Under the pieces are notes generated by a model, which was not told where the DNA came from, made no database searches, and saw only the letters and a program-made list of their open reading frames with translations. This document shows positions 7,611 through 29,450 of a DNA stretch of 29,753 nucleotides, piece by piece; the stretch's first letter is position 1; each line of letters opens with the position of its first letter. Position numbers and translations under genes: made by a program. The DNA comes from a virus: the IMG/VR virus record IMGVR_UViG_3300036945_000407, positions 1 through 29,753 of that record, one strand, 5' to 3'.

Positions 7611-7963
7611 ATTGTTATGTATGAATTATTATCAATCGATGTGGATGTGTATTGACCATTATTGATTGAATAACTGCTTTGTGATTGATTTGTGACAAAA
7701 ACTCTGTCTTTGTATATTACTACATTACTCACGTTAAAATAAGCCTTTAAAACGTAGAAAGTGTTTTCTTTTAAGAATGACAAATCTGTACTTCCTACTG
7801 TATAAATGTCATTTGTTGATGTTCTTGTAGTTGCAGTTTTAGTTGTTACTTCCTTTGTTGTTTCATTTGTAAATTCCAAACGAATACTGTTTCCACTCAA
7901 ATCAACTTGACTGATTGGAATGATAGGAAATGTTTGTGATGCAGATGTCGTTAATATAATCAT
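7607..7963 (-). CDS. small structural protein upstream of portal
   Basis: 118 residues from the ATG at 7963. A longer frame exists upstream only with a TTG that falls inside the terminator stem, so the ATG is chosen; the late motif at 7969-7993 also precedes it. Rich in Thr/Ser with beta-type alternation (DLSFLKENTFYVLKAYF, VVIYKDRVFVTNQ) and ends in NNGQYTSTSIDNNSYITI. Similar short beta proteins occur beside portal genes in Bacteroidetes phages. Probably a minor virion component; role unknown. Confidence 0.7.
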   Translation of the reverse strand: MIILTTSASQTFPIIPISQVDLSGNSIRLEFTNETTKEVTTKTATTRTSTNDIYTVGSTDLSFLKENTFYVLKAYFNVSNVVIYKDRVFVTNQSQSSYSINNGQYTSTSIDNNSYITI

Positions 7964-7968
7964 AACAA

Positions 7969-7993
7969 TATAACGAGTATTTATATTTTTTTG
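7969..7993 (-). promoter_or_regulatory. late-gene upstream motif, copy before the 7963 start
   Basis: Minus strand: CAAAAAAA (7993-7986), ten bases, CGTTATA (7975-7969), then five bases to the ATG. Spacing is identical to the copies at 10211-10235 and 12970-12994. It begins exactly where the terminator at 7994-8024 ends. Confidence 0.6.
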
Positions 7994-8024
7994 TAAAAAA
8001 AAAGCACCCAACGAATTGAGTGCT
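7994..8024 (-). terminator. Rho-independent terminator
   Basis: Nine-pair stem (8003-8011 with 8016-8024, one G-U) around a TTCG loop on the minus strand, then a T tract (8003-7995). It ends the transcript of the 8070-8606 gene. Confidence 0.85.
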
Positions 8025-8069
8025 TAATTTGACCGAGTAATTTCTCAATCCCTTTTTTTCAACGCATCC

Positions 8070-8606
8070 CTACGCTGGTGTTATCTGTGTTGGAGTTGCA
8101 CCTCCAGCAATTTTAGTTGTAACCAAAGTAGAAGTCACGAACTGTGCCATTAAAGGCTCTTCGGCAGTAATGGTTAAACTGTAACCATTCAAATCTCCAA
8201 GTGCCACTCCAGTTGAAATTGTTCCATTGGTAGTCGTTCCTCTTGTCATACCTACTGCAAGGTAGTTTCCGTTATTGTCTTGTACAAAAACGTGAGGACG
8301 AGTTGCAATTAGTTTTGCAAGTTCTGCTTGTGTTGGTGCATCAAGTTTGGTCAATACCAAAGTCAATGATTGAGCAAAAAATGTTGTTCCATTGTCATCA
8401 CTTGATGTGATTGTTTGTTCTAATCCAGATGCACTTTTTACATCATATTGATAAAGAGTGTAAGTTGTTCCACTAAATGCAGTTACTATCCCCGCAGTTA
8501 TAGTTGCAGTTCCAAGTGTACCGTAGTCTGCAAAGAATACTTTTTGAATTCCTCCAACTGCATCCTTACACGCTAATTTTCGACCAGTAGTCATTAAACA
8601 AGCCAT
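8070..8606 (-). CDS. probable major tail tube protein
   Basis: 178 residues, beta-rich and Thr/Gly-rich, starting MACLMTTGRKLACKDAVGG, a pattern I associate with abundant structural proteins in Bacteroidetes phages. LEQTITSSDDNGTTFFAQSL and TRPHVFVQDNNGNYLAVG recur in that group, and GYSLTITAEEPL near the end fits a tube-like beta sandwich. It is bounded by terminators on both sides, directly after the capsid gene, implying a separately tuned high-level transcript. Tail tube is favoured over a head decoration protein, but placement away from the tape measure leaves doubt. Confidence 0.6.
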   Translation of the reverse strand: MACLMTTGRKLACKDAVGGIQKVFFADYGTLGTATITAGIVTAFSGTTYTLYQYDVKSASGLEQTITSSDDNGTTFFAQSLTLVLTKLDAPTQAELAKLIATRPHVFVQDNNGNYLAVGMTRGTTTNGTISTGVALGDLNGYSLTITAEEPLMAQFVTSTLVTTKIAGGATPTQITPA

Positions 8607-8629
8607 ATGTATATATTTTTAAAGTTAAT

Positions 8630-8654
8630 AAAAAAAAGGGGTTGTTACACCCCT
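8630..8654 (-). terminator. Rho-independent terminator after the major capsid gene
   Basis: Six-pair GC-rich stem AGGGGT (8637-8642) with ACCCCT (8649-8654), six-base loop, and an eight-T tract on the minus strand (8637-8630). Confidence 0.85.
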
Positions 8655-8661
8655 CTTAAAT

Positions 8662-9576
8662 TTAGGCGATACCGTAAGTTACAGAATCAGCACCGATTCC
8701 AACTTGAAGACCTCTTGTAAAACGTGCAATAAATCTTACATTTTTACTTCCGTCAATGTCAGCCATATCAATAGTTTGAACTAAATTTTGGTCATCTTGT
8801 AAACCAAACCCAACGAATAAGTTAGAAATAGTAGTTGCTACCATTGTGTTAGCTGGTAAACCATTTGCAACGAATATTTGAACACCATCAAAATTCAATG
8901 CAGTTCCGTTTTGATACCATTGGTTACCTTGTGCATTAACACCGTTTCCACCTAATCCAGATGAACCAAATCCACCCAAAAATCTTACGTATGCTTTTGC
9001 TACGTTTTGAGAAACAAATATTCTCAAATCTTCAGCACCATATAAAGCAGATGGTATTGCATCAACAACACGACCCATTTCAGTTTGTACGTTTGATGAA
9101 GTAATTGTTAACGGTGTAGTGATTACAGATGAACCATCAGTTTTCAATAATTTTCCAAGACCAGTTGTAGCATTCCACAAGAAATTTTCTGTGTCCAAAG
9201 CGATGTCTTTTAATACTTTTGCAATAAAGAAATCAGAGAAAGATGCTGGAAGCACATCAAATGAACTATACCCCATCTCTAAAGCAGACCAGTCGCTTTC
9301 AAATGGTGTTTTGCATAATTGTAAGTTAACTTGTTTTTCTGCTACTGTTAGAACTTTGTCAGACAAAGTAACAACTCCAGTATCAGTGAAATCGCAAGTT
9401 GCATCTGTTACTAATCCAGAAATAACTGCTTTCTTTAAAGTTGTTTTGTATTTTACGTTAGGAATTACAGTAACTCCATTGTTTGCAATTGTGTTTGCAC
9501 TTAATACTGCGGCTGCGATATATTTACCAGCACTTTCTCCAGCATAATTTGTTGTGATTGTAGGTTGATTTGCCAT
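8662..9576 (-). CDS. major capsid protein
   Basis: 304 residues, near the usual size of a mature HK97-fold subunit. Segments expected of such a subunit are seen: an N-terminal arm (MANQPTITTNYAGESAGKY), a long alpha/beta core, a helix around ESDWSALEMGYSSFDVLP, a surface loop rich in Gly/Asn (GGFGSSGLGGNGVNAQGNQW) and a closing beta region with FIARFTRGLQVGI. It follows the scaffold gene and precedes a strong terminator, the standard arrangement for the most abundant virion protein. The 31-base gap before the ATG is almost purely A/T with no late motif. Confidence 0.85.
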   Translation of the reverse strand: MANQPTITTNYAGESAGKYIAAAVLSANTIANNGVTVIPNVKYKTTLKKAVISGLVTDATCDFTDTGVVTLSDKVLTVAEKQVNLQLCKTPFESDWSALEMGYSSFDVLPASFSDFFIAKVLKDIALDTENFLWNATTGLGKLLKTDGSSVITTPLTITSSNVQTEMGRVVDAIPSALYGAEDLRIFVSQNVAKAYVRFLGGFGSSGLGGNGVNAQGNQWYQNGTALNFDGVQIFVANGLPANTMVATTISNLFVGFGLQDDQNLVQTIDMADIDGSKNVRFIARFTRGLQVGIGADSVTYGIA

Positions 9577-9607
9577 TGTTTTTTAATTTTTATTTTTTAA
9601 TTTATAT

Positions 9608-10183
9608 TTAGTTTCCAGATAACATTGCAAAAACTCTTGCTTGTGTTGCTGACGTGTTTGGAGCAACTTTTACCTCGCTCATTTTTACTTTCTCTCTTGG
9701 TTTGTGAATTGTTGGTTTGGTTGCTGAAACGCTTGAAAGAGTTTCTTTCATTTCAGTTTGACCACCAGCCAATAAATCAATCATTGCTTGTAATTCATCA
9801 ATCTTTGGTTGTACTGCCTCCATTACTTTGGCAATTACTTCCTCAATTGTTGGAGGAACTTCTGCTAACTCTTCAACGATTGTTTCTGTTGGAGTTTCTT
9901 CAACTACTTCAGTTGATAATTCCTCTTCAACTATTTCAGTTGATGCACTTGCCAATTCGCCAATGACTCCGATTTCTGTCACATATAATTTTGTGCCATC
10001 TGCCATCACATATTCGCCAACTTCAAGTGGTGTTTTGTTGTCGCCATCAATTGCAAAAATTGGCTCACCAACTGCAAATGAATCTGCCTCAACTACTGTT
10101 CCGTTTTCAAGTGTTTGTTGTTCCAATTCTATTTTTTTGGAAAGCAACGCATTGATTCTGGAAAGAATGTCTGTGTTTTTCAT
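9608..10183 (-). CDS. probable capsid scaffold protein
   Basis: 191 residues from the ATG at 10183. An upstream in-frame ATG at 10207 lies only three bases past the CGTTATA box and would be lost if that is a promoter, so the inner start is preferred. The protein is very acidic in the middle (long Glu/Thr/Val run near 85-120), has a predicted coiled helix near 120-150 (VMEAVQPKIDELQAMIDLLAGG) and a basic C-terminus, features of scaffold proteins whose tail binds the capsid subunit. A small beta domain (TLENGTVVEADSFAVGEPIF, DGTKLYVTEIGVIGE) sits in the N-terminal half and recurs in Bacteroidetes phage proteins beside the capsid gene. Confidence 0.7.
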   Translation of the reverse strand: MKNTDILSRINALLSKKIELEQQTLENGTVVEADSFAVGEPIFAIDGDNKTPLEVGEYVMADGTKLYVTEIGVIGELASASTEIVEEELSTEVVEETPTETIVEELAEVPPTIEEVIAKVMEAVQPKIDELQAMIDLLAGGQTEMKETLSSVSATKPTIHKPREKVKMSEVKVAPNTSATQARVFAMLSGN

Positions 10184-10210
10184 ATTATTAATTTTTTTTG
10201 AATTCATTAT

Positions 10211-10235
10211 TATAACGAAATGTTATATTTTTTTG
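10211..10235 (-). promoter_or_regulatory. late-gene upstream motif, copy before the scaffold gene
   Basis: Minus strand: CAAAAAAA (10235-10228), ten bases, CGTTATA (10217-10211). The bases between the two blocks (TATAACATTT) also resemble the 7969-7993 copy. It lies 28 bases before the preferred scaffold ATG. Confidence 0.6.
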
Positions 10236-10245
10236 TATTTTTCAA

Positions 10246-10419
10246 TTATTCAAAATGTACATATTGCACATATTCTGGAATCTCATCCTCTGAAATTTCA
10301 AATAAATCTGAATGATTTACTATTGAGGGATGGTCTTCTAACTCTCCAACATAATTGTCTAAATTTACTATTGTGTAGCTATTTGTTCCTACTGAATTGA
10401 TTTGTCTTATATGTCTCAT
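10246..10419 (-). CDS. small acidic hypothetical protein
   Basis: 57 residues. ATG at 10419-10417 overlaps the stop of the fibre-like gene by one base (TAATG), arguing for coupled translation; TAA at 10248-10246. Acidic C-terminal half (SEDEIPEYVQYVHFE), no known domain. It is the last gene before the scaffold/capsid transcript. Confidence 0.6.
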   Translation of the reverse strand: MRHIRQINSVGTNSYTIVNLDNYVGELEDHPSIVNHSDLFEISEDEIPEYVQYVHFE

Positions 10420-12125
10420 TATGTAAAATATTGTAAGGTTAAATGTACCGCTCTTGCACCAATTGCAGATGAGTATGCTATTACAAACTCATATCCAGTA
10501 TTTGCAGAATTTCTTCTTAAGAATGTAACCCTCGCTAAACTCGCAACCGCTACTGTTGTTGTATTAAACATACCAGTACCATAATAAAGAATATCTAATG
10601 CTCCAGTAAATCCAGTTGGACTCAATGGAGTTGGCATATCAGTTGGCAATGAAATAGTAACTTGTGTAATACTTCCAGCAGTAACGTAACTTAAATTTAC
10701 TCTTACAGTTACCAAACTACCGACTTGATTCCATTTATATGTATTTGCAACGATGCTTGTCGGTGCAGTAGTTGTCCAGATTAATGTTCCACTATATGTT
10801 TGCTCTGCCACATCTCTGTAAACTTGTGCAGTTGGTATTGCACTTGCATTTGTGTTATTTGCTAATATTGAATATGAAGATTGAACCGCACTCCCTATCA
10901 CTAAATCACCAGCACCAACCAAAGTATTTCCGTTAATAGATTTGATGTTTACAGTACTCACAAGTGTGTCTTGTTTTGATGTCGCTAATCCACTGTATTG
11001 AGTGTTTGTGGCATTGTCACCAGTATTGTTTCCGCTTAAAGTTGTGATACCTAACTTTGATTTTATTAATGTATCTGTTAATGCTTTATTTTTCCAAAGT
11101 TGTGTAGCACTTTCATATTGCAAAAAATCTTCATTTGCTTCTGCATTTATATATACATTATGAAGTTCATCCAATTCCCAACCATTCATTACTTTCACAT
11201 AAATTTTACCGTGAATTGAATGTGAATATTCAACATATCCAATAACAACTATGTGACCGTTTGAACCGTTTGGTTTTACATTGGTTACTCTTCCAGCTAC
11301 ACTTGGACTCAAATATAATACATCGCCATCATTCCAAGTTTCTCCTTGCAAACTTCCGCTTGTATTTATTTCTTCTATTTGACCCATCGTTATAATGAAT
11401 CCCTCTTGATTTGGTGCTATTGATTCAGCAACCAATCCAATTGTATCTGCACTATTTGCATCATTATTGGCTCGTGCTAATTCCACAGATAGCCTTTGAC
11501 CAGTTGCACCGCTTATTCTAACTGCTTGATAATTTGCTTTTGTTAAGGTAGTGTTTGGACTTACTTTATTTACAATTCGAGCAACTAAATCACTTCCGTT
11601 TTTTATAATTACATTCCCTCCTTTTAAAGTAGTTTGCGAAAGACCAGCAGTATCATTCCATTGAGTTGTAGCAATTGTAGGAACTTGCGTCGGCGTTGTG
11701 TCTAATGTTATTTGACTCGCACTAATTCCATATTCACCCATATTCAGATTGGCAGTAGCACCAACATAAGGAATGAAATTTTCTGGTGATAAAATAGTGG
11801 GTTTATTTAAAATTAAAGCATCTCCAGTTGTAGCATTCCAATCTGCATTTACGTTCACTTCTGCTCCAGTTGCAATTCCATTTAACTTGCTCTTTTCTAC
11901 TGGCGAAAATAAACCCGCATTTACGGAATCCGATAATGGTATTGTTGCAGAAGTTCCATTGTCGCTTACAACTTGTCCGCTTGAAATTGCTGGAGCATAG
12001 CTTAAATTAGTGACTACTAATTGCGATATTTTTACTTTTTTAGTACTTCCTTGATTTACGATAGGTAATACATCGTTAACATCTAACGTACTGACTAAAT
12101 CTAATTCACTTATTTTCTTATCCAT
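10419..12125 (-). CDS. fibre-like structural protein, likely receptor-binding
   Basis: 568 residues. The start (KISELDLVSTLDVNDVLPIV through STKKVKISQL) is a short domain common at the N-terminus of fibre and appendage proteins in Bacteroidetes phages, probably a virion anchor. Then come typical fibre spacers: SKLNGIATGAEVNVNADWNA with LILNKPTI, IPYVGATANLNMG, and LSGNNTGDNATNTQYSGLA with VKSINGNTLVGAGDLVIG-like text. The C-terminal about 130 residues (after ANNTNASAIPTAQVYRD) form a Thr/Val-rich beta domain that may be the receptor-binding tip. Low Cys, high Asn/Thr/Ser and repeated short motifs fit a trimeric fibre. Its place between protease and scaffold genes leaves open a head fibre rather than a tail fibre. 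Confidence 0.75.
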   Translation of the reverse strand: MDKKISELDLVSTLDVNDVLPIVNQGSTKKVKISQLVVTNLSYAPAISSGQVVSDNGTSATIPLSDSVNAGLFSPVEKSKLNGIATGAEVNVNADWNATTGDALILNKPTILSPENFIPYVGATANLNMGEYGISASQITLDTTPTQVPTIATTQWNDTAGLSQTTLKGGNVIIKNGSDLVARIVNKVSPNTTLTKANYQAVRISGATGQRLSVELARANNDANSADTIGLVAESIAPNQEGFIITMGQIEEINTSGSLQGETWNDGDVLYLSPSVAGRVTNVKPNGSNGHIVVIGYVEYSHSIHGKIYVKVMNGWELDELHNVYINAEANEDFLQYESATQLWKNKALTDTLIKSKLGITTLSGNNTGDNATNTQYSGLATSKQDTLVSTVNIKSINGNTLVGAGDLVIGSAVQSSYSILANNTNASAIPTAQVYRDVAEQTYSGTLIWTTTAPTSIVANTYKWNQVGSLVTVRVNLSYVTAGSITQVTISLPTDMPTPLSPTGFTGALDILYYGTGMFNTTTVAVASLARVTFLRRNSANTGYEFVIAYSSAIGARAVHLTLQYFT

Positions 12126-12357
12126 TTAATATAATTTTGTCGTTGTTTTCTTGTAGGATGTAATCACCGTTTTCTTGTTTCAAATAATAATCAACTGCAA
12201 CAAATGGAACGTATTGAATCACTCCGATTCCTTGTGCTTGTAGTGAACCATCGCAACACTTTCGACTGTATGTACCATCTTCACACAAACAACCTCTATT
12301 GCCTCCTTTTGGACTTGTCCAACTTGGCGTCTTGAATGCTTTACTTCTATTTGCCAT
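12118..12357 (-). CDS. small cysteine-rich protein
   Basis: 79 residues from the ATG at 12357; the in-frame codon at 12366 is TTG and less likely. The N-terminal half is conserved-looking (KTPSWTSPKGGNRGCLCEDG, then YSRKCCDG), with a CxC and a CC pair that could bind metal or form a knot. The C-terminal half ends in two similar acidic strands (YYLKQENGDYILQENNDKI). Such proteins sit beside protease or fibre genes in Bacteroidetes phages; role unknown. It overlaps both neighbours by a few bases. Confidence 0.7.
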   Translation of the reverse strand: MANRSKAFKTPSWTSPKGGNRGCLCEDGTYSRKCCDGSLQAQGIGVIQYVPFVAVDYYLKQENGDYILQENNDKIILNG

Positions 12358-12964
12358 AATTATCAAACAATGATTTGATTTCTAACAATTGCAAACCAGC
12401 CTCAATTTCTGAATCTGTATCATCAACTTTTGACAATGGTAATTTGGCTTTGTCTGCGAAATATCCTTCAATCGAAAATCCTTTCACTTTTTTAGTCTTG
12501 ATAAATTCATTCCAGATGACATCATTTTCAACTTTGATTGTTCCCATCCAAGTTCCAACTGGAACATTCAAATTGTATAGATTAGATTTGTCCTTTTCTG
12601 TACTTTCTACTATCCAAGATTCAACCATTGTCAATCCAGTGATTGCCTCTTTATGTTCAAATGTTGCATTGCCTTGATTTCCATTTTGGAAAAACATTTC
12701 CATACATTTCCGGATCGTGTCTTGTGAAAAATAAATGTAATACTCTCCATTTTCCTCGTCTCTTCTATATATCGGTTTATCTGGCACAAGCATTGCACCC
12801 ATTATGATTCTTTTTTCCTTGCTTACTTCTGCAAAGTGATATTCTTTTTGCTCTGTTTTTAAGGCAATGAAATCCTCTTCGATAGCTGGTGACTCAACAA
12901 TTGAAATTGCATCAATTCCACTCAACTCCATTTGTTCGTCTATGATAAGTTCGATAATTTTCAT
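12347..12964 (-). CDS. XkdF-like prohead serine protease
   Basis: 205 residues matching the XkdF/S78-type phage protease pattern. It opens with IELIIDEQMELSGIDAISIV and ESPAIEEDFIAL, then has IIMGAMLVPDKPIYR, the likely catalytic His in FEHKE (H104) followed by VESWIVE, and the likely catalytic Ser in KGFSIEGYF (S164). Such enzymes trim scaffold and capsid N-termini during maturation. The late motif lies five bases before the ATG. The protease opens a transcript that runs into the fibre gene, with the scaffold and capsid genes about 2.1 kb further on. Confidence 0.85.
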   Translation of the reverse strand: MKIIELIIDEQMELSGIDAISIVESPAIEEDFIALKTEQKEYHFAEVSKEKRIIMGAMLVPDKPIYRRDEENGEYYIYFSQDTIRKCMEMFFQNGNQGNATFEHKEAITGLTMVESWIVESTEKDKSNLYNLNVPVGTWMGTIKVENDVIWNEFIKTKKVKGFSIEGYFADKAKLPLSKVDDTDSEIEAGLQLLEIKSLFDNYGK

Positions 12965-12969
12965 AATAT

Positions 12970-12994
12970 TATAACGGTTTTATTATTTTTTTTG
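12970..12994 (-). promoter_or_regulatory. late-gene upstream motif, copy before the protease gene
   Basis: Minus strand: CAAAAAAA (12994-12987), ten bases, CGTTATA (12976-12970), five bases to the ATG. It contains TATAAT, so it could act as a -10 element. Confidence 0.6.
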
Positions 12995-15149: not shown

Positions 15150-17744
15150 TTAGTCTTTAATTAATCTTACTGCAAGTCCAAAATACAATTCTTTCCAAGT
15201 TTCAACACAAGTTAGGGTTGAATTAAACATAACATTATCATACGCATTTTCAGAATCTTTTTGTGTAGAAGTCCAAAAATAAGCATCATAACCTACTCGA
15301 TTAAAATCATTGTTTAAACTATTTGGCAATCCATAACGAAGACCAGAAGGATTTGCACTAAAAAGACTTGAATTATTTGCGTTATTTGGAGCAAACCAAT
15401 ACCCATCATTACCCTCAAGCGTTCCAGTAGATTTGAGTTTTCCTCCAGAAAGTGAACTGCCTCCTAATGTCGTTCTTAAAGTCTCCCATTCTGTTCTCGT
15501 AGGTATGTGATAACCTACTGGTGCCAAACCTCTTGAATCATTTACTGCATACCAATTGTATAATCTTCCGTAAATAGGCTCGGTGGCTGGGTCATTATTT
15601 ACATAACACCAAGCACCAGTTTCTAATAATCGCCATTCTTCTGGGTCAGAAACATAAGGTATTGTCACACCGTCTGCGTAAGTTGTAACAGATAAATTTT
15701 GAGTAGTCCAAATTTGTTCACCTATTAAAATTTCAGTAATAACATTTATTTGTTCTAACAATCCAATGTCTGTCAGTAGTTCAAATTGTACCAGTCCAGT
15801 TGTCAAATCTGTTGTGAATGTATTGATTTTATATTTAGCATCACGTATAATGATACTATCGTTCAATTTAAGCGATGTTAATATGCTTGTCGGTAGTATG
15901 GCACTCAACTTAATTAATCGTGATTTATAATTGAAAATATTACTCAAATAATTTTCGTAATATTGTTTGTACAATCCATTTACAACTGTTTCATTATTTA
16001 AAGTAGACACTTGAGTAGGAAAATTCAAACCATAAATAGTCCCATTATCAAATAAAACTTCTTGTCCAAATGCTTTATATGTAAAATTTATACCTCCAAT
16101 ATAAAATTGAGGCACAGTTTGTGTTCCAGAATATTGGTAGTCAAATAAAATTGTAGGTTTTGGAATATATGATTTAAAATCTGTTTTTAAAGAATATCCA
16201 ACTTGTAATTTTTCAATTAAATTATTAAAATTTAGATTTTCAAATGGTAATTTAATTGAATATTCCTCTCCGTCATTTCCAGTATTGTAAAGTAAAGAAC
16301 CATATTCAATTCCATTTTGTGAATTAAAAGCTACATTTATAAATGACTGCGACTTCTCATATTGAAAGTTTATTCTTTTGTATGTTTTTACTCGATTTAA
16401 ATCTTTTTTGTCTTGTAATACGTACTTTGTTATTTCTACATTATTTCCAGCATCGTAATAGCTTTGTAATTGCTCAATTGTGTAATTTATTCCATCTTCT
16501 GAAAAGCAAGTTAAATTAAACATTTTTAATATTCCAGAAAAGAAATCCTCAATTTTTATTTCTGGCATATATGAATTTAATGGTAATTTAGGAACTATTG
16601 TAGTTTGTGCTTGTGGGGATTTGCTCATCTCCATATAATTATTGTTCCCACTATAAGTAACTTGTAATTGATTATTTGCTTCAAATGTAATAGGTTGCTC
16701 GGATGATATATAAAAATTATATACATCATTTGGATTTACATTATTAATTGAAATTAACAAATCAAAAATTACTGTCGTACCTCCAGCCGTAGCATTTCTT
16801 GAATTTATTTCTCTGCCATTTTTATATAGACTTACTTTGTAAGGAAATCCATATCCGCTGGTAACTAAAACATTACATTTTGCACTATAATAATGAGTTG
16901 CTGAACCTATTAAAAATCTAAAACTGTAAGTTTCTATACTGCTGGAAAAAAAAACAGTTGATGATGGCGGATATGTAATAACTTGATTGAAAGTTATTTT
17001 TTGTGGTACTGAATAATAGCTAAATGTTTCCGCATTTTTTAACCACAAATAAGCATCCCTAAATCTCGTATCAGTTAAAAATGCTCCATCAAAATTGATT
17101 AAAAATTTAGTTTCAATCATATTAAATAAAGCCGATATTCTTATGGCTGGGAATAATTCATTATGTCTTATGCCATAAGTAGCAGATGCACCTATGTTGT
17201 TAGTGACTCCGTTTGAATCATCATAACTCCATAATCTGCTTGACGATATAAGAGGGAACATTACATCACGACTTGCAACATTATCAACTACTCGTGAATA
17301 TACATTATTTGAAGTATAATCAATATCATAGTATGATGTGTTCAAATCTTTTAAATACAATCCATCAAATGTATCTTTTAAATTACCTAATATTCCTATA
17401 AAAGTAATTGAATAATTTTGTGCTTGACCATCGACTAAATTCGCACTTTCAAGTTGAATTTTTCCTTTTCGAAATGTGATAGTGTCTATTTCAATATAAG
17501 CATCTGACTTAACTAATGTACTGAATGGAGCATCATTTGAGTTGTCGTACCAATGACGAAATATTTTATTGTTTTGTACTGATGCTGGGACTGTAAATGT
17601 CTGACTGAAATCAGTAAAGGTTTTACTTATATCGTTGATGTTTTGAATAGAACTTGTTACAGATATTTTTTCATCGTCAAATAAATCAATTCGGTTGTAT
17701 TCGTTTGTATCAACATCTTTTATATATATGGCTACTGTAAGCAT
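15150..17744 (-). CDS. large tail protein with C-terminal Fib_succ_major (C-type-lectin-like) domain
   Basis: 864 residues. Residues 1 to about 670 form a beta-rich tail protein that starts LTVAIYIKDVDTNEYNRIDL and contains FTDFSQTFTVPAS, a pattern I know from Bacteroidetes phage tail genes. The last 191 residues (674-864) match the Fibrobacter succinogenes major paralogous domain: IGEQIWTTQNLSVTTYADG, GRLYNWYAVNDSRGLAPVGY, HIPTRTEWETL, FWTSTQ, and the closing GLAVRLIKD. This domain has a formylglycine-generating-enzyme/C-type-lectin-like fold, the same general fold used for hypervariable ligand binding in other phages. It is probably displayed at the tail tip for host recognition. It sits between a 374-residue tail protein (abutting) and the tape measure. 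Confidence 0.8.
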   Translation of the reverse strand: MLTVAIYIKDVDTNEYNRIDLFDDEKISVTSSIQNINDISKTFTDFSQTFTVPASVQNNKIFRHWYDNSNDAPFSTLVKSDAYIEIDTITFRKGKIQLESANLVDGQAQNYSITFIGILGNLKDTFDGLYLKDLNTSYYDIDYTSNNVYSRVVDNVASRDVMFPLISSSRLWSYDDSNGVTNNIGASATYGIRHNELFPAIRISALFNMIETKFLINFDGAFLTDTRFRDAYLWLKNAETFSYYSVPQKITFNQVITYPPSSTVFFSSSIETYSFRFLIGSATHYYSAKCNVLVTSGYGFPYKVSLYKNGREINSRNATAGGTTVIFDLLISINNVNPNDVYNFYISSEQPITFEANNQLQVTYSGNNNYMEMSKSPQAQTTIVPKLPLNSYMPEIKIEDFFSGILKMFNLTCFSEDGINYTIEQLQSYYDAGNNVEITKYVLQDKKDLNRVKTYKRINFQYEKSQSFINVAFNSQNGIEYGSLLYNTGNDGEEYSIKLPFENLNFNNLIEKLQVGYSLKTDFKSYIPKPTILFDYQYSGTQTVPQFYIGGINFTYKAFGQEVLFDNGTIYGLNFPTQVSTLNNETVVNGLYKQYYENYLSNIFNYKSRLIKLSAILPTSILTSLKLNDSIIIRDAKYKINTFTTDLTTGLVQFELLTDIGLLEQINVITEILIGEQIWTTQNLSVTTYADGVTIPYVSDPEEWRLLETGAWCYVNNDPATEPIYGRLYNWYAVNDSRGLAPVGYHIPTRTEWETLRTTLGGSSLSGGKLKSTGTLEGNDGYWFAPNNANNSSLFSANPSGLRYGLPNSLNNDFNRVGYDAYFWTSTQKDSENAYDNVMFNSTLTCVETWKELYFGLAVRLIKD

Positions 17745-20042: not shown

Positions 20043-20783
20043 TTTTTCTTTGTATTTTTGTCAATTCCTCTGCCTCTTTTTTTCTCTTGTCTATTTTGTA
20101 GCAAAGATTATTCAAACAAGTGTGGATGTTTAGTTGTTCGATAGCCTCATATTTGGTAATGTCTCCTCCAGCCAATTCGTCAATTGTGCTATACCAATTC
20201 CAGTTAGTTTCAAATTCGGATGGCTCTGAAACTCCTTCTCCATCTCCGAAGAATTGAGGATATATTTCACACAATCCAAGCCTAAATTCCAAAAAAAAAC
20301 CATCGCTCCGATTACTGCACTCAATGGCATCTTTCTAATGTACTGGTGATATTTGTCACCCTCGTACTTTTCAATGTTGTACAACCCATTTGATTCATTC
20401 TTGATTGGTCTGTACAAAACACCCATTGCAATATGCATTGCACTCCAGTCTGAAATATTACCATTCAAATCTAATAGTTCAGCATAAGTCATTTTGTCAA
20501 GATCCGGCATCCATCCAAATTGGATTCCATTCACTTCAAATCTCTCAACTCTTTCTGGTTGCTTTTCAAGAATATTGTCCAAGATGTCAGATATGTTTTC
20601 AACTGAATCGTATTCCATATTCATTATCTGCTCTCTGGATAACTTACAGAATATTTCAATCTTTTTTATCTTAAGATATTCCTCTGCATCTGGGAGTTTC
20701 TTTCTGCTTTCAATCTCTTGGTTGTATTCTTGATACTGAATCAATGTGATGTCATTTAGACTGCTTGGGATGACTAACTTCAT
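20032..20783 (-). CDS. tail assembly chaperone, -1 frameshift fusion product (G-T type)
   Basis: The 217-residue frame from 20783 and an 86-codon frame ending at 20032 overlap by 163 bases, offset by -1. The second frame has no ATG near its beginning (only TTG at 20292), but it is open across a run of nine Ts. Slippage after Phe164 joins them into a 250-residue product. Its extension carries a helical, lysine-rich tail (CYKIDKRKKEAEELTKIQRK). In lambda and many other phages a low-frequency -1 shift gives the G-T fusion that recruits tail tube protein to the tape measure. The extension ends 11 bases inside the next gene. A homopolymer sequencing error is the alternative. Confidence 0.65.
20130..20783 (-). 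CDS. tail assembly chaperone, unshifted product (G type)
   Basis: 217 residues ending in NWLEETLPNMRLSNN. The text from KLVIPSSLNDITLIQYQEYN through YLKIKKIEIFCKLSREQI is a common opening of chaperone-like tail proteins in Bacteroidetes phages, and QFGWMPDLDKMTYAELLDL (about 88-106) continues the family pattern. It is the first gene after the terminator at 20844-20871 and therefore probably opens the tail transcript. The weak late motif at 20803-20826 precedes it. Confidence 0.72.
   Translation of the reverse strand: MKLVIPSSLNDITLIQYQEYNQEIESRKKLPDAEEYLKIKKIEIFCKLSREQIMNMEYDSVENISDILDNILEKQPERVERFEVNGIQFGWMPDLDKMTYAELLDLNGNISDWSAMHIAMGVLYRPIKNESNGLYNIEKYEGDKYHQYIRKMPLSAVIGAMVFFWNLGLDCVKYILNSSEMEKEFQSHPNLKLTGIGIAQLTNWLEETLPNMRLSNN
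20292..20298 (-). other. candidate slippery heptamer for -1 frameshift
   Basis: The minus strand reads GTT TTT TTT TGG in the zero frame, giving T TTT TTT, an ideal X XXY YYZ heptamer within a nine-T run (20299-20291). A slip of one base changes the next codon from TGG to TTG and enters the downstream frame. Confidence 0.6.
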
Positions 20784-20802: not shown

Positions 20803-20826
20803 TATAACGCATTTATTAATAATTTG
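20803..20826 (-). promoter_or_regulatory. late-gene upstream motif, weak copy before the tail operon
   Basis: CGTTATA is present on the minus strand (20809-20803), but the upstream block is only CAAATTA and is one base closer. The ATG is 20 bases downstream. Its position between a terminator and the first tail gene makes it the only visible start signal for that transcript. Confidence 0.4.
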
Positions 20827-20843
20827 AGAGGAAATGTATGAGC

Positions 20844-20871
20844 AAAAAAAAACACCCCATCTGGAGTGCTT
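20844..20871 (-). terminator. Rho-independent terminator before the tail operon
   Basis: Hairpin 20851-20858 with 20863-20870 (wobbles at two positions), four-base loop, and a nine-T tract on the minus strand (20852-20844). It separates the small-gene operon from the structural genes. Confidence 0.8.
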
Positions 20872-21553: not shown

Positions 21554-21586
21554 CAAATATACAACTAAATAAATGTTATAAACAAA
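21554..21586 (-). promoter_or_regulatory. Bacteroidetes-type promoter for the 21518 operon
   Basis: Minus strand -33 TTTG (21586-21583), 21 bases, -7 TATATTTG (21561-21554). The same spacing and flanking sequence occur at 26170-26202. Confidence 0.78.
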
Positions 21587-23242: not shown

Positions 23243-23614
23243 TTAGTTGCTATTTACGCAATTGGTTATCTGTTCTATTTTTGATATGTCTTCAATGCTT
23301 TCAATCATTTTCATCAATAAGTACTTTGGGTCTATTGTTCCCATTACTGTGTCTCTTACATCGTTTAAATGTGGTTTGCGTCTTCGCACCTCTTCAAACA
23401 TTCTCACGTTGTATAATACTGTGCAATGAGTCAATTTCTTTCCTTTTGAATTGAAATGGTCTTTCACTTTATGTAACGTAAATTTCAAATCTTTGTGTAG
23501 GATGTAACAAGCCATTGAGCGAATGTCAACCAGATCTTGTGTTCTTTTGTTTTCGTATATGTTCACACCACAAATTTGATTGATTGATTCACATATGTAT
23601 TTTTCTTTATTCAT
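23243..23614 (-). CDS. DnaA C-terminal-domain-like DNA-binding protein
   Basis: 123 residues. The middle (about 25-75) follows the DnaA domain IV pattern: DLVDIRSMACYILHKDLKFT, then KVKDHFNSKG and the signature-like LTHCTVLYNVRMFEE in place of the HSTVLYA segment. The AAA+ ATPase part of DnaA is absent. It might bind phage origins, host DnaA boxes, or act as a transcription or packaging regulator; its place just before the terminase genes is compatible with a packaging-site role. It abuts the exonuclease gene with no gap. Confidence 0.75.
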   Translation of the reverse strand: MNKEKYICESINQICGVNIYENKRTQDLVDIRSMACYILHKDLKFTLHKVKDHFNSKGKKLTHCTVLYNVRMFEEVRRRKPHLNDVRDTVMGTIDPKYLLMKMIESIEDISKIEQITNCVNSN

Positions 23615-26169: not shown

Positions 26170-26202
26170 CAAAGATAAACTAAAACTAATGTTATAAACA
26201 AA
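26170..26202 (-). promoter_or_regulatory. Bacteroidetes-type promoter for the exonuclease-terminase operon
   Basis: Minus strand -33 TTTG (26202-26199), 21 bases, -7 TATCTTTG (26177-26170), with the same spacing as the promoter at 21554-21586. Confidence 0.78.
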
Positions 26203-27820: not shown

Positions 27821-28009
27821 CTATTTTCCATAAGTTCTGTTTTTAATTTCGATAGCAACATCATTCCAATAGTTGCAATCCTCTGTTTCGTTGTTTTTTC
27901 TCGTTTTATAAATCAATCCATTGACAACATTTTTTACATAGTCAATTGGATATTTGTTCAGCAATAAAATTGCTCTTTCCGGTGCAGTAAATTGATTATT
28001 TAATCTCAT
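27821..28009 (-). CDS. small hypothetical protein
   Basis: 62 residues. Starts within the last 14 bases of the sigma-like gene. Helical N-terminus (APERAILLLNKYPIDYVKNV) and a polar C-terminus (NYWNDVAIEIKNRTYGK). No known motif. Confidence 0.6.
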   Translation of the reverse strand: MRLNNQFTAPERAILLLNKYPIDYVKNVVNGLIYKTRKNNETEDCNYWNDVAIEIKNRTYGK

Positions 28010-28538
28010 TTTTGATTTGGTTTTTTATGATTAATACTGTATTTCTTAAACTCCAGTAGGTGATTCCAACCTCTTGACTCAATTTTGTGACTGACATTTG
28101 CTCAACAAATATCTTGTCAAATATAAACTTGATATAAATTAGATTTGCTTTCTTTCTGTTGTAGTCTTGGATGCTTTCTATTTCTAAATTCAATCTGTCA
28201 ATCCAAATGTTTTTAGCATCGTTTTTAAGGTGATATTCTTTCTCGGTGTATTCTGTCTCATCTTGAATAAAATCATCGCTTAAATCGACTAAAAATTGTT
28301 TTTTGCTTTTCCTCAAATCATCATAGTACATATTTTTCAAAGTGACATAAATGAAATAATAATTTACATCATTTTCGTCATACATTAAATCGTTGTCTTT
28401 TCGCTGACTATAATTGAAAATCTTGATGTACATCTCTTGCACGTAGTCTTCTGCAATATCATCTGGACATCCAAACGATTTAATGTATTTCAACCATTGT
28501 TCGTGCTTTAAGCATAGTACATCAAGAATATTTTTCAT
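27996..28538 (-). CDS. sigma-factor-like protein (ECF type)
   Basis: 180 residues, the size of extracytoplasmic-function sigma factors. Residues 25-42 (PDDIAEDYVQEMYIKIF) resemble region 2.1-2.2, and NYYFIYVTLKNMYYDDLRKS (59-78) resembles regions 2.3-2.4. An acidic linker follows. The end (about 147-180, MSVTKLSQEVGITYWSLRNT) is a helix-turn-helix like region 4. It should bind host RNA polymerase core and redirect it, most plausibly to phage late genes, which carry a non-host motif (CAAAAAAA-N10-CGTTATA). The linkage is inference. It lies one base after the ATPase gene in the replication operon. An alternative is a DNA-binding adaptor with sigma-like folds. Confidence 0.72.
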   Translation of the reverse strand: MKNILDVLCLKHEQWLKYIKSFGCPDDIAEDYVQEMYIKIFNYSQRKDNDLMYDENDVNYYFIYVTLKNMYYDDLRKSKKQFLVDLSDDFIQDETEYTEKEYHLKNDAKNIWIDRLNLEIESIQDYNRKKANLIYIKFIFDKIFVEQMSVTKLSQEVGITYWSLRNTVLIIKNQIKNEIK

Positions 28539-29450
28539 TTAAAGGAAATTTAATTGTGATTCTTTGATTGTTTGGAGGATGCTTTTACCATTTAAAGCAA
28601 AGCCAACATTGTTATGCATCGCAGTCAATAGGATTGGCTCATCGTATGGTGTCGGAATTCCTCCAGTTTCAACCTCTTTGACCTTTCGAATGTGAATCAT
28701 TGTTTGATTCCATAGTGTGCTATGACCTACCAATCGATGAATAACAATAAAGTCATCGGCTCTGTTTACGAACTTGCCACCACCCTCAACATCGTTTGCC
28801 ATTGGTGGTTGTGGGAATCCAGCAAAAGGATGATTCTGACTGTACAACATTCGTAATGCAGTTGTGTTTGCGTGAGTATTCAACCATATTGAGACTTTGT
28901 TTTCTTTACAGAACATTCGCAGTTCAGTACACGCTTGATAATCATATTCGTGACCACCAAGATTTTTCATCATTTCTTGGTCTTTTGCGAGTGAGTTGTA
29001 TGGGTCGAGCAGTATGCCATCATAATTGAAATCCTTTTTGATTTTGCCGAATACTTCTATTGCAGAAATGTATGTGTACATTACTGAATTGTCAATGAAC
29101 TTGAAATGCAAATTGATGAAATCGGTGTGTGTTTTAAAATTAGAATCCGAAACCAAATTGATTGGTGTCTCATCCAAAAACTCGACCAACTTTCTAATCA
29201 AAGAATAGGAATCATTCTCTGTGCTACATATCAACCATTTTTTTCCATTCTTGAGAGAGTATGCTAACATCAAATAAAGAATGGATGTTGTTTTACCTAC
29301 GTTTGCGTGACCCAGAATGATGTTGAAATTTGATGGTTTAAATCGAATGTAATTGTCTATTTCTGGAATTCCTAATCTGTACCCCTCTTTTAATTTTCCG
29401 CTCCTTATATCCTTTAAAATAGATAATTGTTGTTTATAGTCTATTAACAT
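28539..29450 (-). CDS. DnaB/RecA-type replicative helicase ATPase
   Basis: 303 residues, one RecA-like domain. Walker A GHANVGKT (47-54), a catalytic-type Glu in CSTEND (E78), Walker B GILLD (145-149), and NTHANTT (191-197) as the sensor-like strand; the C-terminal part has GGGKFVNRADDFIVIHR, near the DnaB-like arginine-finger region. The N-terminal DnaB domain is missing, as in compact phage replicative helicases. It should load on single-stranded DNA at forks. It follows the methyltransferase gene with a CACTAAAACAAA leader at 29453-29467 and precedes the sigma-like gene. No primase is recognised in the genome, so host primase is likely used. Confidence 0.82.
   Translation of the reverse strand: MLIDYKQQLSILKDIRSGKLKEGYRLGIPEIDNYIRFKPSNFNIILGHANVGKTTSILYLMLAYSLKNGKKWLICSTENDSYSLIRKLVEFLDETPINLVSDSNFKTHTDFINLHFKFIDNSVMYTYISAIEVFGKIKKDFNYDGILLDPYNSLAKDQEMMKNLGGHEYDYQACTELRMFCKENKVSIWLNTHANTTALRMLYSQNHPFAGFPQPPMANDVEGGGKFVNRADDFIVIHRLVGHSTLWNQTMIHIRKVKEVETGGIPTPYDEPILLTAMHNNVGFALNGKSILQTIKESQLNFL

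Follow-up and report, generated by a model that had tools for sequence, protein, structure and literature searches.

What is the function of the two-part motif that recurs shortly before structural genes on the minus strand of this phage genome, and if it is a promoter, which sigma factor reads it? We addressed the question on the whole of the 29,753 nucleotides of record IMGVR_UViG_3300036945_000407, hereafter the window. We propose, with a probability of roughly 80%, that the copies are late promoters read by the host RNA polymerase with a phage-encoded sigma factor, and that many of the resulting mRNAs are leaderless or nearly so. The promoter reading itself is strongly supported by comparison of sequences. 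In the absence of transcript data, the phage sigma factor as the reader, the late timing (from the structural function of the target genes) and the transcription start positions are inferred.

Sites and target genes in the window

The original prediction had described three copies of CAAAAAAA, exactly ten bases and CGTTATA, with a weaker fourth copy, and all four proved to be real. The pattern CAAAAAAA-N10-CGTTATA is matched exactly three times on the minus strand (7969-7993, 10211-10235 and 12970-12994) and nowhere in 300 shuffled versions of the window (first-order Markov), and the fourth copy has CGTTATA at 20803-20809 and CAAA from 20826. Furthermore, a position matrix built from other phages, excluding the window contig and its close kin, returned as its top five matches in the window these four sites and a fifth one. 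The statement that the copies all lie in gaps holds for the four known sites and missed the fifth, which is conserved and sits inside coding sequence.

7969-7993, minus strand: site 1, predicted late promoter; exact match and top matrix match; CAAAA at 7989-7993, CGTTATA at 7969-7975, 5 bases to the ATG at 7963
10211-10235, minus strand: site 2, predicted late promoter before the putative scaffold gene; exact match and matrix match
12970-12994, minus strand: site 3, predicted late promoter, 5 bases 5' of the head maturation protease ATG at 12964; exact match and matrix match
20803-20826, minus strand: site 4, predicted late promoter, weaker copy; CAAA at 20823-20826, 19 bases from CGTTATA to the ATG at 20783; matrix match
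23472-23495, minus strand: site 5, coding-embedded, CAAAG...ACGTTACA, upstream of the terminase genes within a DnaA-like ORF; matrix match, ACG codon
7607-7963, minus strand: target gene 1, encoding a small protein and preceding the portal gene; start conserved among relatives
9608-10207, minus strand: target gene 2, putative scaffold directly before the putative major capsid gene, assigned by position and homologues; a start at 10183 is likelier
12347-12964, minus strand: target gene 3, head maturation protease (Peptidase_S78_2, XkdF-like; Pfam 1.3e-12, PHROGs)
20130-20783, minus strand: target gene 4, opening the tail-side structural run (PHROGs)
23243-23614, minus strand: DnaA-like helix-turn-helix ORF hosting site 5 (Bac_DnaA_C, E 2.4e-5, below the Pfam gathering score)

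The box had not been noticed in other gaps; CGTTATA does occur on the plus strand three times (11388, 24328 and 25723), and no conserved feature was found at those positions. Two copies, those before the genes with starts at 7963 and 12964, stand five bases from the ATG, as had been reported. At site 2, CGTTATA is 3 bases from the first ATG. In most motif-bearing relatives the start is the equivalent of ATGAAAAA, about 22-26 bases from CGTTATA, for which reason the site 2 mRNA probably would have a short leader. Leaderlessness is inferred from spacing and, within the window, applies to sites 1 and 3 only, out of five. In Bacteroidota, which lack Shine-Dalgarno sites, only a small minority of mRNAs is leaderless (5.5% in Flavobacterium psychrophilum).

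Conservation and transcriptional context

Relatives for the orthologue comparison were picked by protein homology alone and not by the motif. CGTTA was present before the orthologues of gene 1 in 48 of 50 relatives, of gene 4 in 36 of 38, of the protease gene in 65 of 75 and of the putative scaffold gene in 12 of 20, against at most three cases in any one of ten other gene families. Absence of the motif from the orthologous gaps of close relatives would have refuted the original prediction, and the motif is nearly always there. Most full-length relatives carry four syntenic sites, and a reversed control pattern gave no match in 29 contigs. The core conserved across relatives is CAAA-N13..15-CGTTATA, with 14 or 15 bases between the boxes at three target genes and 13 at the fourth. 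Of the long motif first described, CAAA(A) and CGTTATA are conserved while the long A run is not kept. The distance from the motif to the start codon ranges from 3 to about 30 bases and is 5-6 in many orthologues of three genes.

Orthologue conservation, the matrix ranking and the Markov shuffles rule out a chance origin. Shared ancestry without constraint was also ruled out, the boxes being kept while flanks, spacers and terminator arms diverge, and a rare codon being kept at the embedded site. In particular, the rare Thr codon ACG is used at this site in 12 of 13 cases, compared with a background of 6.6% (binomial p ~1e-13); on this evidence from codon use, site 5 is fixed in place, with the next gene about 240 bases away. 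We rejected the idea that the motif is spread among all phages. At least 44 exact-pattern matches occur in viral contigs without homologous structural genes, and they look like chance because few adjoin ORF starts: among the matches listed for such contigs, 6 of 44 have an ORF start no more than 30 bases away, versus 85 of 90 in relatives.

The surroundings of the sites include terminators and, elsewhere in the window, promoters of the host type:

7995-8024, minus strand: intrinsic terminator directly upstream of site 1, AGCACTCAA / TTGGGTGCT with T run
20843-20867, minus strand: terminator-like hairpin upstream of site 4, CACTCC / GGGGTG with T run
21554-21585, minus strand: host-type TTG-N-TAnnTTTG promoter before non-structural genes, in a gap
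about 26170-26201: host-type TTG...TAnnTTTG promoter before non-structural genes, in a gap
about 1812-1840: host-type TTG...TAnnTTTG promoter before non-structural genes, in a gap

One copy had been said to follow a terminator directly, and the hairpin with T run just upstream of site 1 recurs in 44 of 45 relatives, with 25 distinct left arms; for comparison, a terminator precedes the capsid gene in 0 of 67. The hairpin upstream of site 4 is present in 15 of 38 relatives. The Bacteroidota sigma-A promoter (TTTG / TANNTTTG) is found ahead of non-structural genes of these phages and shares no box with the late motif, in agreement with the difference from TAnnTTTG that had been pointed out. In gaps of at least 45 bases before the four late target genes, CGTTAWA is found in 53 of 59 and TAHHTTTG in 1 of 59, so that the sigma-A -7 box is not a property of these gaps. 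Before unnamed, mostly non-structural genes, the corresponding figures are 8 and 63 of 221 gaps of the same minimum length, with the two never together. TAHHTTTG and the late motif are almost totally mutually exclusive, and the motif meets the criterion of a promoter-like element common to the structural operons and distinct from the host consensus.

A phage sigma-like protein and its variation

The candidate reader is encoded in the window itself:

27996-28538, minus strand: phage sigma-like protein, 180 aa, region 2 at 1-85 and region 4 at 98-180; assigned by homologues, Pfam and fold

A homologue is present in 31 of the 31 contigs examined. The window protein alone gave no Pfam match and only a weak PHROGs sigma match (E 0.06). 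Sigma70_r2 was matched in 18 of 24 homologues, with matches that are weak to borderline, and the member from the cultured Nonlabens phage P12024S (gp33) exceeds the cut-off (25.2 vs 24 bits). The criterion that the phage encodes a sigma-70-family protein is met through this family and its P12024S member. Among PDB sequences, neither a profile search nor a single-sequence search yielded a useful sigma match, and tblastn of the window protein against isolated phages gave no match. The matches of the predicted fold are ECF sigma factors (best Foldseek E 1.2e-3). In the predicted structure, region 2 aligns with RpoE (Z 8.9, rmsd 2.4 A over 79 residues) and region 4 with that of sigma-E (Z 7.4, rmsd 3.7). 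The 180-aa protein meets the ECF criterion of region 2 joined to region 4 without region 3, with an uncertain domain arrangement (pTM 0.44; full-length alignments with rmsd near 20 A). The neighbouring gene at 28539-29450 is DnaB-like.

It had been proposed to check whether the motif follows the presence of the sigma-like gene. Since the gene is in all contigs, plain presence or absence is uninformative; only co-variation counts, with three or four lineages behind it. The motif does change with the sigma subtype, from CGTTATA to CGTTAATA in P12024S and to TTGTTAAATA in contigs with the third subtype, whereas G029 has the gene and no recognised motif. The suspected link with this gene is supported by the protein fold and by this variation; the evidence that the sigma factor directs RNA polymerase to the motif is indirect only and consists of the latter. 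Of the Nonlabens phages P12024S and P12024L (Inhavirus), P12024S was compared with the window: it has a related capsid (31%), protease (46%) and sigma protein, with CAAA-N-CGTTA at similar spacing before homologous genes. It differs in its variant -10 box and in having more sites: CGTTA, mostly as CGTTAATA and with CAAA at about the same distance, lies 6-7 bases before the ATG of 7 of 45 forward genes, with ~0.07 expected at one fixed position.

Proposed reading, rivals and related systems

We propose a two-box late promoter, CAAA(A) and CGTTATA, to which the small two-domain phage sigma would bring the host core RNA polymerase, region 2 reading CGTTATA and region 4 reading CAAAA. Transcription of the structural modules, and probably of the terminase genes, would depend on five such promoters, and the other genes would be served by the host sigma-A promoter. 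For the genes starting at 7963 and 12964, where only five bases separate the box from the ATG, transcription should begin at the ATG or within about two bases of it. We suggest only tentatively, as something that could well turn out otherwise, that sigma factor and promoter have diverged jointly into at least three codes and that the late switch alters the mode of translation too, through promoters fused to start codons and the many leaderless late mRNAs that these would give.

In T4 (gp55) and SPO1 (gp28 and gp33-34), phage-encoded sigma factors serve late or middle genes. The system proposed here would resemble them in that a sigma-family protein redirects the host RNA polymerase to a short phage motif before structural genes; unlike them, it involves an ECF-like two-domain protein, Bacteroidota hosts, CAAAA/CGTTATA boxes and many leaderless-type sites, and lacks biochemical proof. 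With ECF sigma factors (E. coli sigma-E, B. subtilis sigma-W, M. tuberculosis SigH/SigL) it shares the fold of regions 2 and 4 and a -10 box beginning with CGT; however, the gene is a phage gene and the -35 box is CAAAA, the usual ECF -35 box being of the AAC type.

A signal for translation initiation or mRNA processing, the alternative admitted in the original prediction, could draw on the frequent five-base distance to the ATG. We consider this alternative hardly credible and prefer a promoter, because the motif is not at a constant distance from the start codon, one conserved site lies within coding sequence far from the next gene, and terminators abut the motif, directly upstream at site 1. 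Enrichment in A near the start codon cannot separate a translation signal, as the motif itself occupies those positions. Two boxes at fixed spacing can also be an operator for a phage activator or repressor acting with the host sigma-A holoenzyme, and the DnaA-like protein is a DNA-binding candidate. This seems improbable, since TAHHTTTG almost never accompanies the motif and sigma-A would therefore be without its -7 box; moreover, the boxes are placed as -10 and -35 elements relative to start codons.

Somewhat less improbable, though still unlikely, is a promoter recognised by one of the host's own ECF sigma factors, of which the phage takes advantage, with some other role for the sigma-like protein of the phage. 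Host ECF promoters of F. psychrophilum also have a CGT box at -10 (PMC9723704), which, from the portion of that source available, counts against a phage sigma as the reader. On the other hand, every phage examined has its own sigma homologue, the motif varies with its subtype, and no CAAAA -35 box is given for the host motif in that portion. The SM6 promoter class described there differs in controlling host genes, e.g., type IX secretion components, and within the same portion we found no link to phage genes.

If the reading by a phage sigma is correct, the orthogonal sigma/promoter pair would offer an expression tool for a phylum in which promoters from E. coli do not work. Late mRNAs without a leader would also allow initiation in the absence of Shine-Dalgarno sites to be put to the test. 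The late-gene switch is little known in most Bacteroidota phages, and a short, well-defined promoter and a candidate sigma within one 30 kb genome, together with variants of both in a cultured relative, make the proposal directly testable. We found no paper describing the motif or a Bacteroidota phage late promoter, most subscription papers being outside the search. The motif-bearing phages are a group of viruses of Bacteroidota bacteria. Searching genome contigs with a single capsid protein for host identification gave no match, and an alignment found four MAG contigs, with the labels Bacteroidia, Flavobacteriaceae, Polaribacter and Bacteroidetes.

Occurrence of the two-box motif in the window and in related phages

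The long open reading frames of the 29,753-base virus record lie on the minus strand, where the gene order, from the high-coordinate end, runs from replication-type genes through the terminase, the tail-side genes, the protease, the putative scaffold and capsid, and the portal to genes of the lysis/recombination type. The last part of one tail-side protein (15150-17744) is a Fibrobacter succinogenes major domain (Pfam, 1.6e-36), possibly a receptor-binding or variable domain.

The original prediction had described three exact copies of a motif and a weaker fourth before structural genes, and re-checking of the sequence found all of them in place (7969-7993, 10211-10235, 12970-12994, and 20803-20826); exact matches in 300 Markov shuffles amounted to 0. 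Furthermore, when both strands were scanned with a two-box matrix whose training set left out the window contig and its close kin, five window sites occupied ranks 1 to 5, with the fifth scoring 11.2 bits versus 8.3 bits for the next-best match.

Relatives were selected via the capsid protein and the protease, never via the motif, and CGTTA was counted within 70 bases of the orthologue start, with identical upstream regions discarded. It precedes 48 of the 50 orthologues of the 7963 gene, 36/38 of the 20783 gene, 65/75 of the protease, and 12/20 of the scaffold; in ten other families (capsid, 8606 gene, portal, tape-measure-like, 12366 gene, Fib_succ tail gene, and four more) it occurs in 0 to 3 of 18 to 75. 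Read backwards or as its reverse complement, the sequence is essentially absent. In most of the 29 relatives reassembled from record pieces for a whole-genome scan (most of 24 to 34 kb), the four sites lie on the coding strand ahead of the same four genes; no match to a reversed control pattern turned up in any of the 29. The first box in relatives is CAAA(A), at a distance of 14 or 15 from CGTTATA except at the 20783 gene, where it is 13; conservation does not extend to the long A run.

Separation from host-type promoters and a site embedded upstream of the terminase

In 44/45 relatives the 7963 site is preceded by a hairpin and T run whose left arm takes 25 different forms; none of 67 capsid upstream regions has such a structure. 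Incoming transcription of the capsid operon would stop at this hairpin, so that the portal operon must have a start of its own. Within gaps of at least 45 bases, CGTTAWA precedes the four late genes in 53/59 cases, and host-type TAHHTTTG does so in 1/59; neither was found before other structural genes (0/64 each), and unnamed, mostly non-structural genes have CGTTAWA in 8/221 cases and TAHHTTTG in 63/221, never both together. Two host-type promoters of the window (26170-26201 and 21554-21585) have in common the stretch TTGTTTATAACATT around the -33 box, possibly a further regulatory element.

The fifth site (23472-23495) falls inside a coding sequence:

23243-23614, minus strand: DnaA-like helix-turn-helix ORF with the embedded site, conserved immediately ahead of the terminase genes
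23231-21638, minus strand: terminase

It coincides with codons Thr-Leu-Tyr/His, most often following CRCAAAG or CACAAAG. In 12/13 representative homologues the Thr is encoded by ACG, although ACG makes up 6.6% of Thr codons, and this column is the most extreme among 23 conserved columns (binomial p ~1e-13, uncorrected for relatedness). Since the site lies about 230 to 250 bases from the ORF end, after which the terminase genes come next in the window, it is not a start-codon signal. The site argues for a function at the level of DNA or transcript start and suggests a promoter for the terminase genes.

The candidate sigma factor and the proposed mechanism

The candidate reader of the motif has a homologue in 31/31 contigs examined:

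27996-28538, minus strand: sigma-like protein of 180 residues

Among its homologues is gp33 of the cultured Nonlabens phage P12024S, for which the depositors annotated sigma-70 region 2 and which matches Pfam Sigma70_r2 above the cut-off; weak matches occur in 18/24 homologues (best 6e-4). The AlphaFold2 model (24 sequences; mean pLDDT 81.7, pTM 0.44) predicts two confident domains in an uncertain arrangement, and its top structural matches are ECF sigma factors. In particular, residues 1 to 85 match region 2 of RpoE (Z 8.9, rmsd 2.4 over 79), and residues 98 to 180 match region 4 of sigma-E in a structure that includes its -35 DNA (Z 7.4, rmsd 3.7 over 67). Because helical domains easily reach middling Z scores, the fold match is supporting only and not decisive, and the case for sigma identity rests on fold, domain order, and Pfam all pointing the same way.

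In the simplest account, the phage sigma, bound to host core polymerase, would read the motif as a late promoter, late timing and sigma binding being inferred. Late-gene sigma factors encoded by phages are already known as a type of system; the present one, in phages of Bacteroidota and with an ECF-like protein and a promoter family of its own, appears to be an undescribed version. That the host belongs to Bacteroidota is inferred from the host-type promoters, P12024S, and four MAG contigs. ECF factors typically have a CGT in the -10 box. A host ECF class of F. psychrophilum has it as well (PMC9723704).

CGTTATA stands 5 to 6 bases from the ATG in most 7963- and 20783-gene orthologues and in more than half of the protease orthologues, and mostly 8 to 22 in the remainder. 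Where five bases separate the box from the ATG, the predicted start site would fall on the ATG or within about 2 bases of it. At sites with longer distances, A-rich sequence lies 9 to 12 bases before the start; given these sites, the tendency to leaderlessness, inferred from spacing, belongs to particular genes and not to the motif itself. Leaderless-type mRNAs are a minority in flavobacteria, at 5.5% in F. psychrophilum (PMC9723704), and with leaders of >10 bases on 87% of predicted transcripts in F. johnsoniae (PMC6847099).

Variation of the motif with sigma subtype

Across these phages motif and sigma change together, binding of one by the other being inferred. In P12024S, whose capsid is 31% identical to that of the window, CGTTA lies 6 to 7 bases ahead of the ATG in 7/45 forward genes (~0.07 expected at one fixed position). 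Most of these boxes read CGTTAATA and have CAAA at a similar distance, and the sites precede homologous genes (gp01 protease, gp05 before portal), plus others. Two contigs of a sister group of phages, G039 and G037, encode a third, more distant sigma subtype; no CGTTATA was found at their gene starts, and TTGTTAAATA (6 versus 0.36 expected in the G039 locus) precedes the protease, scaffold, 12366-type, and other late genes. A further contig, G029, has a related sigma, yet no definable motif; AT-rich TTGTTT..TATATA-like stretches, possibly another promoter variant, lie ahead of its late-gene starts. G037 (62,622 bases) and G040 (62,650 bases), twice the usual size, each carry two sigma-like genes and two late-gene sets of different identity, and resemble a fusion of two related phage genomes, whether made by the assembly or in another way.
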